A model generated the notes under the pieces. It worked only from the letters and a program-made list of their open reading frames with translations, was not told the DNA's origin and searched no databases. Both the position numbers and the translations under genes were made by a program. From contig JAFUGS010000008.1 in the NCBI GenBank assembly GCA_017469265.1, positions 29,788-93,787 of the forward strand: a DNA stretch of 64,000 nt, in the 5' to 3' direction. This document shows positions 30,128 to 33,860 of the stretch, one piece after another (position 1 is the stretch's first letter; the number at the start of each line of letters is the position of its first letter). Origin of the DNA: Clostridia bacterium (GTDB lineage: Bacteria > Bacillota > Clostridia > Christensenellales > Aristaeellaceae).

Positions 30128-30136
30128 TGGTATAAT
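30128..30136 (+). promoter_or_regulatory. Probable promoter of the Hsp70 cluster (extended -10)
   Basis: TATAAT (30131-30136) preceded by TGG, an extended -10; the -35 position (TTTTAT) is weak. No CIRCE element is visible. Confidence 0.55.
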
Positions 30137-30137
30137 A

Positions 30138-30168
30138 ATCGGGGTGGGTTTTTCCATCCCGATTTTTT
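30138..30168 (+). terminator. Terminator hairpin overlapping the Hsp70 transcription start
   Basis: Arms ATCGGGGTGG (30138-30147) and CCATCCCGAT (30154-30163) with one G-U pair, then six T (30163-30168). It lies 2-30 bases after the -10 of the Hsp70 promoter, so it can terminate read-through from the upstream repressor gene. Confidence 0.75.
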
Positions 30169-30182
30169 GGGAGAAAAAAAAC

Positions 30183-31766
30183 ATGGCCAAAATGATTGGA
30201 ATCGACCTTGGAACAACAAACTCCTGTGTCGCATTCATGGAAAACGGACGCGCTACTGTGATTCCAAGCGCTGAGGGAGAGCGAACGACGCCTTCCATCG
30301 TCGCCTTTACCAAAAACGGGGAAAGGCTGGTAGGGCAGGCCGCGAAAAGGCAGGCAGTTACCAATGCTGACCGCACTTTTTCCTCTGTGAAGCGTGAAAT
30401 GGGTTCGGACAAGGTCTATCGGGTGGAAGGACGGTCGTACCGTCCGCAGGAACTTTCCGCCATGATTCTTCGAAAACTGAAAGCGGACGCGGAGCGCTAT
30501 ATCGGAGAGACGGTTTCCGACGCGGTGATTACGGTTCCCGCCTATTTTACGGACGCGCAGCGCCAGGCCACCAGAGACGCCGGTGTCATTGCCGGGCTGA
30601 ATGTGCTGCGGATAATTAATGAACCTACCTCAGCGGCTCTGGCCTATGGATTTGATAAAATGGAAAACCGCAAGATCATGGTGTATGACCTCGGAGGCGG
30701 AACGTTTGATGTTTCTATCCTTGAGATCGGCCATGACATGATTGAAGTGCTGGCTACGGCGGGAAACAATCACCTGGGTGGAGATGATTTTGATCTGTGT
30801 GTTGTCGGTTTTCTGCTGGATGTATTTAAAAAGGAACATGGGATGGACCTGTCAAAGGATCCCATGGCCATGCAGCGTTTAAATGAGGCAGCTGAAAGGG
30901 CAAAGATTGAGCTCTCCTCCGCCCAGACGGCCGTGGTGAACCTTCCTTTTCTGGCGCAGACATCGAAAGGGCCGCTGCATCTTGAAACTACGCTGTCGCG
31001 CAAACGATTTGATGAGCTGACCTCCCATCTGGTGGATGCGACCAGAGGCCCCGTTCAGCAGGCGATGGAAGACGCGGGTGTATCCGCCGGAGATATTGAC
31101 CGTGTGCTGCTGGTTGGCGGAAGCACAAGGATTCCCGCGGTTCAGGCCGCGGTTCGAAGCATGATGGGAAAGGAGCCTTCCCGGGATATCAATCCCGATG
31201 AATGTGTCGCCATGGGTGCCTGTCTGCAGGGCGGCGTGCTGACAGGCGCCGTAAACAGTCTGCTTCTGATTGATGTAACGCCTCTTTCCCTGGGGATTGA
31301 GACCATGGGAGATGTTTTCGCCCAGATTATTCCACGAAACACACCGCTTCCGTGCCATCACTCCCAGGTTTTTACAACCGCCGCGAATTTTCAGACCAGC
31401 GTGGAAATCAACGTACTGCAGGGGGAACGGGGAACCGCTTCCGGCAACAAATCCCTCGGAAAATTCAGACTGGACGGGATTCGGCGGGCACTGCGGGGAA
31501 TTCCGCAAATCGAGGTCACTTTTACGATTGATACAAATGGGATCGTTCAGGTCAGCGCCAGAGATCTGGGAACCGGACGCAGCCAAGAAATCACCATTAC
31601 CGGTTCTGGAAACATGAGCCAGGCTGAAATTGAGCAGGCGATGCATGACGCGGAAATGTACGCGGAAGCGGATCGAAGAAAGCGTGCAGAGGAAGCCCGA
31701 TACAGCCGAAAAGGCGCCGACGCGGCGGAAAACAGATCTGACGATGACGGCGCCATGGACGCCTGA
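30183..31766 (+). CDS. Short Hsp70 (DnaK-like) chaperone
   Basis: 527 residues from ATG at 30183, against about 610-640 for DnaK. The ATPase domain (about 1-365) is complete: [57 protein letters not shown] and [13 protein letters not shown]. The substrate-binding beta domain is present ([14 protein letters not shown] [13 protein letters not shown]), but the C-terminal helical lid is cut to about 60 residues. No grpE, hrcA or canonical dnaJ is adjacent; instead DUF5685-like, J-domain and zinc-ribbon genes follow. A specialised Hsp70 paralogue with its own J partner is most likely. Confidence 0.92.
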
Positions 31767-31778
31767 GAGGGGAAGCCT

Positions 31779-32621
31779 ATGTTTGGATATATTACTCCCC
31801 GGATGGACGCGTTGTCGGAAACACAGCAGCAACGGTACCGATCGGTTTACTGCGGCCTGTGCCGCGAGCTGGGCCGGCTGTCAGGCCAGCGCGGCCGGGC
31901 CCTGCTCAGTCATGATATGACTTTTCTTGCGCTGCTGCTTTCCTCTCTGACGGAGCCCGATGAAGCCGCAAAAGAATTCCGCTGCCCCGTTCATCCGATT
32001 CAGAAGCGGCTGCAGGTACAGAACGAAGCGGTTTCCTACGCTGCAGCCATGAATCTTGTCCTGATGGATTTGAAATGTGAGGATCAGATTCGCGATGAAC
32101 ATTCAAGGGCTGCTGAGACAGTAAAACAGCGGATTCAGCCCGCCATGGAAAAGATCAAAAAGCAGTATTCACGTCAGACCGCGCAGGCTCGAGGAGCGCT
32201 GGAACAACTCTGGATGGAGGAAACGCGGCCTCATCCGGATCCGGATCGTCTGTGCAACCTTTCCGGAACCATGCTTGGAGCCGTTTTTGTCCCGAATTCG
32301 GATTTAACCCCGTGGGACGTTCATCTTCGCGTTCTGGGGGAAGGACTGGGCAGATTCGTGTATTGGATGGATGCGTGGGATGATCGGGAGAGGGATCATC
32401 GAAAACGCCGCTTCAATCCGATTGACTGTCTGGAAATTCAGGGGGAACCGGATTCGTATATCAGGGAGATTTTAGAGATGCTGATCGCCGAAGCGGTGAC
32501 CGCATTCGAGGTGCTTCCGCTTGAACAGGATCTTGATCTTCTGCGCAATGTGCTGTATAGTGGCGTATGGCAGCGTTATGAAGCTGTACATAACCGCCGG
32601 GAGAAGGAGCGAGAAGAATGA
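31779..32621 (+). CDS. DUF5685-like protein
   Basis: 280 residues, predicted soluble and helical. The N-terminal [33 protein letters not shown], with a CxxC pair, and a later Cys/His cluster ([10 protein letters not shown]) match the DUF5685 family; a possible metal site is formed by these Cys/His. [24 protein letters not shown] is another conserved-looking block, acidic and reminiscent of metal-binding helices. Function is unknown. It lies 12 bases after the Hsp70 and overlaps the J-protein start by ATGA, so it probably acts with both. Confidence 0.78.
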
Positions 32622-33424
32622 CCCGTGATCCTTTTTCCGTGCTGGAGATACCCGACTCCGCCACGGAAGATGAAATCAAGTCCGCCTACCGAAAGCTGGC
32701 TAAAAAGTATCATCCTGACCTGAACCCCGGGGATAAAGCTGCGGAGCAGAAGATGAAAGAGGTCAATGAGGCCTATGCAGAAGCCATGCGCATCCGGAAA
32801 AACGGGGGCACCTGGCAGTCTTCTTCCTCCTCAAACAGTTATGGCGGCAGTTATTATTCCCCCGACGGTTCTTCCTATAACGGTTCAACTTCCGGCTATG
32901 GCGGATATGGTTCAAATCCCTTCTGGGGACAGAAGCAGGGGTGGGAACAGCAGCGGGAAAATCCATTTGAGGAATTCGGGTTCGGTTTTTCTCCTTTTTC
33001 CGATTTCTTTGGCGCGGGACAGCATCGGACCACGTTTCGCACGCGGAATTACGCAGATCCTGAACTGAAGACCGTTGAAAGCTATGTGCTGGCCCAAAGA
33101 TTTCAGGATGCCCTGAATCTGCTGAATCGGATTCCTACCCATGACGCGGACTGGCATGCGCTCTACGCGAGAGCGGATCTGGGGCTTGGCAATCGAATTT
33201 CCGCGCTGGATCACGCGCGGAAAGCCAGCCAGATGGCTCCGGAAGATTCAGATTATCAGCAGCTGGTACAGGTGGTGGAATCCGGCCGCCAGGCGTACCA
33301 GCAAACCAGGCAGACCGGTTATCAGTTTAAGAACGCAGTCTGCGCCAATCCATTCCTGACCTGCTGCGCAATGAACATTGCCCTGCGATGCTGTCTCGGG
33401 GGACGGGTCTGGCTATGCTGTTAA
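32618..33424 (+). CDS. J-domain protein with Cys-rich C-terminal tail
   Basis: 268 residues. The J domain (about 4-65) contains the HPD motif ([10 protein letters not shown]), needed to stimulate Hsp70 ATPase. A Ser/Gly/Tyr-rich low-complexity linker (about 68-125) follows, then a helical TPR-like region (about 145-225; [42 protein letters not shown]). The last 27 residues contain seven Cys (CANPFLTCC ... RCC ... CC). It lacks the DnaJ zinc-finger and client-binding domains. It is the natural partner of the adjacent short Hsp70. Confidence 0.88.
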
Positions 33425-33452
33425 TGGACAAAAATGAAGGAGATTGAATCGA

Positions 33453-33860
33453 ATGTTGCAGAAAATCAGAGAAACACTGACCAGATGGATGACAGGACGT
33501 CATGGACCGGATCAGATGGGAATGTTTACATTGATGGCCGGGCTGGTCTGCTCGCTGGTCGGTTCCTTTACGAGATGGGGCATTCTTAACCTTGCCGGCC
33601 TTGGTCTGTATATCTGGACCCTCTACCGTATGCTGAGCAGGAACCATCAGGCCAGGTCCATTGAGAATCAAAAGTATCTTTCGCTGACAGGAAAGTACTC
33701 CCTTAAAAGCAGGCAGTTTTTCCGCCGGATGAAGAACAGAAAGGAATACAAGTATTTTCGCTGTCCAAACTGCAGGCAGCTGCTCCGGCTGAAACGGGGC
33801 TGCGGCTCGAAAGAAATTACCTGTGCCAAATGTGGACACCAGTTCCAGCAGAAAGCCTGA
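33453..33860 (+). CDS. Small membrane protein with C-terminal zinc ribbon
   Basis: 135 residues from ATG at 33453, 10 bases after AAGGAG. One or two hydrophobic segments (about 28-65) are followed by a basic region and a C-terminal zinc ribbon, CPNC ... CAKC (about 105-130). Proteins of this shape occur next to DUF5685 and J-domain genes in Clostridia. It may anchor or guide the chaperone set at the membrane; that role is inferred from position only. Confidence 0.72.
   Translation: MLQKIRETLTRWMTGRHGPDQMGMFTLMAGLVCSLVGSFTRWGILNLAGLGLYIWTLYRMLSRNHQARSIENQKYLSLTGKYSLKSRQFFRRMKNRKEYKYFRCPNCRQLLRLKRGCGSKEITCAKCGHQFQQKA

Follow-up and report, generated by a model that had tools for sequence, protein, structure and literature searches.

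The DUF5685-J protein pair of Clostridia as the core of a candidate membrane-directed chaperone module with an optional Hsp70

Organization of the locus

A 64,000-nucleotide stretch of contig JAFUGS010000008.1 from a Clostridia bacterium (assembly GCA_017469265.1), here called the window, contains four adjacent genes on the plus strand that encode an Hsp70, a protein with the domain DUF5685 (PF18937), a J protein with a cysteine-rich C-terminal tail and a small zinc-ribbon membrane protein (Table 1). An initial annotation, made from the sequence alone, had taken them for a dedicated chaperone machine centered on the Hsp70, and its spacing of 12, -4 and 28 bases between the genes is borne out by the coordinates. 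Surveys of related genomes lead to a different emphasis: DUF5685 and the J protein make up the constant core, to which the Hsp70 is an optional addition. Coordinates below are positions in the window; L-numbers denote loci read and G-numbers genomes sampled, the source genome (G000) comprising 2.57 Mb in 103 contigs.

The DUF5685 protein scores 268.5 bits against its Pfam model, for which the curated cut-off is 26.7. The J protein combines a J domain, a tetratricopeptide repeat (TPR)-like part and a Cys tail; with its HPD motif present and the zinc finger and C-terminal domain of DnaJ missing, it belongs to class C. The initial annotation had correctly read the intact HPD, the Cys tail and the lack of DnaJ client-binding domains, and had overlooked the TPR-like segment (residues about 159-217); TPR_14 passes its cut-off in one relative of this protein. 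The membrane segment and zinc ribbon that had been described for the fourth gene correspond to a hydrophobic segment and a four-Cys ribbon. The Pfam matches of zinc-ribbon type for this gene are weak and all below cut-offs, and no curated family reaches its own.

Table 1. Coordinates of the four genes and of features within their products
Feature	Position	Strand	Remarks
Hsp70 paralog, 527 aa	30183..31766	+	Pfam HSP70 E 1.5e-209; C terminus DDGAMDA
DUF5685 protein, 280 aa	31779..32621	+	PF18937 full-length match, E 8.3e-80
DUF5685 invariant CxxC (C25, C28)	31851..31862	+	169/169 aligned rows
DUF5685 third invariant Cys, C69	31983-31985	+	169/169 aligned rows
DUF5685 first Asp motif, D102-x3-D106	32082..32096	+	D102 169/169, D106 167/169; aligns with squalene/phytoene synthase motif
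DUF5685 second Asp motif, D198-x3-D202-x3-D206	32370..32396	+	169/169, 169/169, 167/169; aligns with second motif of the synthases
J protein, 268 aa	32618..33424	+	start overlaps DUF5685 stop by 4 bases
J domain	32627..32779	+	Pfam DnaJ E 1.5e-18
HPD of J domain	32711-32719	+	from translation
TPR-like segment of J protein	33092..33268	+	TPR_19 E 4e-4, below cut-off
C-terminal Cys tail of J protein, ends CC	33338..33421	+	7 Cys within last 45 residues
Small protein, 135 aa, hydrophobic segment and C-terminal four-Cys ribbon	33453..33860	+	hydropathy peak at residue 22

DUF5685 and the J protein are the constant partners

PF18937 was detected in 159 of 291 sampled genomes of the class, or about half. 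We read 104 class loci, namely the window, three found by a contig search and one stretch from each of 100 further genomes, which were hand-picked out of the other 158 for spread and contig room. A J gene lies directly 3' of DUF5685 in 96 of the 104, and the two genes overlap in at least 71 of those 96 according to a script that guesses starts. An Hsp70 is found within 6 kb of DUF5685 in only 6 of the 104 loci and a zinc-ribbon protein in 13. In the family to which the window belongs, PF18937 was detected in 73 of 100 genomes, and 65 distinct loci besides the window were read (the 30 with the best scores, read with flanks of 1.5 kb, and 40 read with flanks of up to 5 kb, 5 loci being in both sets). 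All 65 contain the J gene, at least 27 an adjacent Hsp70 and at least 49 the zinc-ribbon protein (4 of them on the opposite strand), the latter two counts being lower bounds as short flanks can hide partners. The initial annotation had expected the short Hsp70, the J protein and the zinc-ribbon protein to accompany DUF5685 consistently in Clostridia; this holds for the J protein alone. DUF5685 mostly stands without an adjacent Hsp70, the very outcome that the annotation had set against itself, and the Hsp70 is ruled out as the core of the system. What endures of the proposed separate machine is the gene module with its J and DUF5685 partners, the extra Hsp70 and a probable membrane link.

The association extends to whole genomes. 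A profile of the TPR part and tail of the J protein (20 rows, J domain excluded, threshold E 1e-8) finds 149 of the 291 genomes, and 145 have both this profile and DUF5685, 14 DUF5685 alone, 4 the tail alone and 128 neither (Fisher 3e-60, a value that ignores kinship). Within the 14, G166 and G222 rest on weak DUF5685 matches (E 1e-4 to 1e-3), and G033 and G113 do carry a J gene beside DUF5685 (L105 and L075).

Small membrane proteins frequently adjoin the pair. They occur in 79 of the 104 class loci and are of two unrelated kinds, never both in one locus. The zinc-ribbon kind follows the J gene in 7 loci and precedes DUF5685 in 6, and a second kind, for which no Pfam or NCBIfam model scored above cut-off in the members scanned, follows the J gene in 66. 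This second kind was seen in none of the 65 family loci.

DUF5685 copies were present on plasmids in 3 records, and three single-protein scans returned none from viruses. One plasmid copy, from Nocardia (L140:8001-9008), has a Cys-rich C terminus of its own and no annotated J gene within 8 kb; a Syntrophomonas DUF5685 (L038) likewise bears a Cys-rich C-terminal extension. A rule that DUF5685 proteins without a J neighbor carry their own Cys tail is true for these two and fails for L046, L048, L066, L070, L077 and L079 (L101 is cut by the contig in this comparison). Many DUF5685 proteins end in a conserved ESI-like sequence, which we attribute, by inspection, to the overlap with the beginning of the J gene.

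The cysteine tail and its replacement

Leaving aside J proteins truncated by the end of a contig, 133 of 134 have four or more Cys among their last 60 residues. In these 133 the Cys content is 22.8% over the final 35 residues and 0.45% over the rest, and Cys is the last residue in 107 of 133 and the penultimate one in 99. Selenocysteine, which internal stop codons in some matches had brought to mind, was rejected: at the 6 loci examined the profile match had extended beyond the stop codon. The last 60 residues contain on average about eight Cys, interspersed in the common type of tail with conserved D, E and GGD, and this raises the possibility of metal or iron-sulfur (Fe-S) handling, in which the tail and the Cys of DUF5685 would bind zinc or an Fe-S cluster and the J protein with an Hsp70 would drive its transfer to membrane targets, much as HscB and HscA do for IscU. 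We regard this as possible, if on the unlikely side. It would suit the invariant CxxC and further Cys of DUF5685, the zinc ribbon on one kind of membrane protein, and one annotated locus with an RseC family gene beside DUF5685 and a class V aminotransferase and DUF3343 further upstream. Yet the predominance of Cys at the last two positions suggests that the end itself is recognized, the linked Hsp70s do not branch with HscA, and no Fe-S assembly gene was recognized by eye, from the first 60 residues, among the 45 commonest neighbor clusters.

A further point against metal transfer, which could hardly tolerate such a change, is the existence of tails without Cys. Four J relatives without an adjacent DUF5685 (L304, L269, L270 and L272) have hydrophobic, Cys-free tails. 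At L304:3074-4302 the zinc-ribbon membrane protein accompanies such a J protein; no DUF5685 match was obtained in this genome, nor in that of L269 (G369). As the Hsp70s of L269, L270 and L272 group together, the swap of tail type fits two events rather than four.

The linked Hsp70s derive from DnaK

The window Hsp70 is a second, short-lid copy of DnaK. A regular dnaK lies on another contig of the same genome (C11), with grpE adjoining and a J gene nearby, and the C11 locus fetched around grpE has a perfect CIRCE (controlling inverted repeat of chaperone expression). The window contains no CIRCE with up to 3 mismatches allowed, in keeping with the initial annotation, and its Hsp70 has neither the grpE neighbor nor the CIRCE control of a canonical DnaK system. 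Both the nucleotide-binding and the beta substrate domain are kept, as had been claimed, together with the linker and the J-contact residues: of 27 selected positions in the nucleotide site, J contact, linker and substrate groove, 24 carry the residue of E. coli DnaK, 2 a conservative replacement and 1 a change from G to D. The lid is indeed short, and the initial figures of about 60 and about 130 residues become 51, counted from the start of the first lid helix, and 131 in the DnaK of the same genome. A full helical lid, at 128-143 residues in 13 clostridial DnaK rows, is absent.

In a tree that included E. coli DnaK, HscA and HscC (the latter two as one long-branched row each), 26 Hsp70 rows (23 linked to DUF5685 and 3 displaced) fall into a single clade, supported at 99/99, whose neighbor is clostridial DnaK. 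Four linked rows (three long-branched ones and L251) had been omitted beforehand; a first tree that included them placed all 13 DnaK rows on one side. Branching with clostridial DnaK, the window Hsp70 is rejected as an HscA or HscC. Clade membership is the same whether the gene lies upstream or downstream of the DUF5685-J pair (in the family loci it follows the J gene in L175, L176 and L216 and otherwise precedes DUF5685), and row L281 is sister to the clade. The lids of 27 linked Hsp70s measure 50-123 residues and those of the 3 displaced ones 96-119, a natural series of lid shortening. The shortest (50 to 68 residues, six rows) require 3 changes on the tree, so that strong lid loss probably occurred more than once.

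It might be argued that this Hsp70 is merely a spare copy of DnaK that came to lie next to a DUF5685-J pair with which it has nothing to do, so that the proximity means little, given that most DUF5685 loci lack an Hsp70 and that clade members occur elsewhere too. We consider this very improbable. A profile of six linked Hsp70s scores above 1,000 bits in 5 of the 291 class genomes (next 958), and all five matches lie beside DUF5685, with the proviso that four of them were in the profile and that clade members with lower scores may be masked by those of DnaK. Of the 20 best matches in the family (944 bits and over), 17 are beside DUF5685 and one more (G313) is 7.5 kb from it, the remaining two (G327 and G371) being on other contigs. 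The occurrence of the Hsp70 on either side of the pair also speaks against a chance landing, as do the clade members of L269, L270 and L272, which adjoin another J gene in the absence of DUF5685.

Two observations may be added here. In L230 the Hsp70 frame upstream of DUF5685 is split in two, which may reflect decay or an assembly error. In the window, a helix-turn-helix regulator with an S24-peptidase (LexA-like) domain lies directly upstream on the same strand (29254-30036).

DUF5685 as a candidate metal-using enzyme

Besides the Cys and Asp residues listed in Table 1, E148, G191 and A199 are invariant in all 169 aligned DUF5685 rows, one of which is an actinobacterial plasmid copy. With its invariant Asp and Cys, DUF5685 looks more like an enzyme-type protein that uses metal than like a simple adaptor. 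As far as residues go, DUF5685 has two DxxxD motifs, with the same internal spacing as in the squalene/phytoene synthases fetched. A profile-profile comparison with these synthases gave an alignment of 123 columns that pairs the two motifs in the same order (score 26.4, P 0.009, probability 4.5%). Reversed controls scored 19.1 and 18.2, 120 block shuffles at most 21.9 and 63 natural neighbor-gene families at most 23.1; five random subsets of 40 rows gave 21.1 to 28.9, and in four of them the aligned range took in both motifs. A known superfamily pair reaches 46.6 in the same comparison, and the test was not blind, the synthase family having been picked after the motifs were seen. DUF5685 differs from the synthases in its extra invariant Cys, and their Pfam family PF00494 was not among the matches listed (25 of 36 families) for 45 DUF5685 members at E up to 1. 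We treat this kinship as a lead with weak profile support, not as membership.

Polyprenyl synthases were rejected as the nearest kin (score 20.0, second motif only). No known structure was convincing among the 13 matches listed, mostly designed helical repeats and unrelated chains; epi-isozizaene synthase, a terpene synthase, appears among them at a non-significant E of 2.7.

The same weak match would also be expected if DUF5685 were a non-catalytic assembly factor with an isoprenoid-synthase fold, like NDUFAF6 of complex I, that presents a subunit of a membrane complex to the J protein and Hsp70, and both these partners and the membrane protein suit assembly. We find this distinctly unlikely. 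NDUFAF6-type proteins, as described in part of PMC8007014, lack the two DxxxD motifs, whereas DUF5685 keeps them almost always, which speaks for chemistry in DUF5685; furthermore, no respiratory complex was recognized by eye among the commonest neighbor clusters.

A proposed mechanism

We lean toward the view that the locus encodes a specialist J-protein module directed to the membrane, in which DUF5685 takes care of the Cys tail and the work is done by any Hsp70 that suits. The J/TPR/Cys-tail protein would be the targeting part: its TPR segment may hold clients or partners, its J domain would trigger an Hsp70, and its tail, together with the small membrane protein, would dock it at the membrane. 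DUF5685 could modify the tail, supply it with metal or keep hold of it. The Hsp70 of this route would in most Clostridia be the housekeeping DnaK, and in the family of the window a DnaK duplicate appears to have joined the locus, free of CIRCE control and with a shortened lid, as might be expected of a motor with few clients.

A more specific proposal is that DUF5685 is a bacterial protein prenyltransferase on a squalene/phytoene-synthase-like fold. Its Asp motifs would hold magnesium and an isoprenyl diphosphate, a three-Cys zinc with an open site would activate the thiolate, and the substrate would be the Cys string of the J partner, mostly ending in -CC, so that a membrane Hsp70 route is anchored; on loss of DUF5685 a hydrophobic tail would take its place. 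We rate this as quite improbable as it stands, though if true such tail prenylation would be categorically new, namely cysteine prenylation in bacteria.

Several observations weigh against a membrane-directed J module serviced by DUF5685. The only Cys tail of the common type that was measured proved less hydrophobic than the tails lacking Cys, and it contains D and E. Hsp70s of the linked clade stand away from both DUF5685 and the J gene in G313, G327, G371, G310 and G359, and in G395 and G325 a J protein with a hydrophobic tail lies beside an Hsp70 and a DUF5685-J pair elsewhere. G099 and G133 keep Cys tails and no DUF5685 was found in them (the genomes are 65% and 61% complete), and in G123, which has DUF5685, the tail profile matches a TPR protein that has no J domain and whose tail is hydrophobic. 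Finally, of the 8 class loci without an adjacent J gene, L038 and L101 end too soon on the contig, leaving six with contig room. Three of these (L046, L048 and L066) come from one bacterial family. The genomes of L048 and L066 encode, away from DUF5685, a TPR-Cys-tail protein that lacks a J domain and has the membrane protein after it, and in that of L046 the tail match falls within a 140-aa frame, from which it follows that Hsp70 work is not essential everywhere. Here the J domain itself has gone and the TPR-Cys tail and membrane protein remain; G169 and G284, which belong to the same family, show this arrangement too. As for the other three loci, the genome of L077 has a J gene with a Cys tail and the membrane protein elsewhere (L303), the sole tail match in that of L079 is a paralog whose J-like domain has lost the HPD (L311), and that of L070 gave no tail-profile match. 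In G233, which has no DUF5685, the tail has a few Cys and the J-like domain lacks the HPD.

Variants of the tail protein were recorded at several loci. J-less TPR-Cys-tail proteins with a small membrane protein directly after them are found at L299:1564-1977, L300:1758-2159, L301:1460-1870 and L302:1684-2148, in genomes with DUF5685 elsewhere on the same contig. At L308:2791-3312, L309:2622-3140 and L311:3018-3569 a J-like paralog that has lost the HPD retains the TPR and a short tail ending in GMC, and L310:2871-3500 encodes a J-less TPR protein with a hydrophobic tail; these genomes also have DUF5685.

Relationship to known systems

Among known systems, HscC of E. coli with DjlB and DjlC resembles the window in being a second, shorter Hsp70 (556 aa) with its own J proteins. 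DjlB and DjlC are tail-anchored and DjlC has been shown in the plasma membrane, as reported in the relevant parts of PMC8215388, and by analogy this few-client Hsp70 with tail-anchored J proteins may serve as a precedent. HscC differs in forming a deep separate branch, whereas the window Hsp70 is a DnaK duplicate, and the sections of PMC8215388 on the HscC system describe no DUF5685, Cys tail or zinc-ribbon partner. HscA and HscB of Fe-S assembly are likewise a dedicated Hsp70 and J protein with few clients (PMC8215388, in part), but the window Hsp70 does not group with HscA in the tree, and by eye no isc-type gene was recognized beside the module.

The J partner has a likeness in eukaryotes, in DNAJC5 and Ydj1/DNAJA1, which also have C-terminal Cys and use them for lipid attachment. 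DNAJC5, the cysteine string protein, is palmitoylated. Neither a J-TPR-Cys-tail layout nor DUF5685 is known from these eukaryotic systems. Ydj1/DNAJA1 is farnesylated, according to part of PMC10939075. With respect to the putative chemistry, a peptide is modified in bacteria by ComQ, an enzyme of isoprenoid-synthase type (PMC5331326). ComQ differs in that it acts on tryptophan, while the proposed DUF5685 substrate is Cys. The 2017 review just cited, in the part covering this topic, gives cysteine isoprenylation as undetected in prokaryotes. Every characterized trans-isoprenyl diphosphate synthase-like prenyltransferase acts on tryptophan in the corresponding part of a 2026 review (PMC13290415).

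A full-text search turned up DUF5685 in a single paper, where it is named once among the conserved domains listed for hypothetical proteins, and searches that included J-protein terms returned, among the matches listed, no description of the DUF5685-J-Cys-tail core. Dedicated sets of Hsp70 and J protein are already known, and it is this core that appears to be new. With a Cys string at the C terminus of a chaperone helper and one partner protein matched to it, the use that bacteria make of such tails becomes directly testable.

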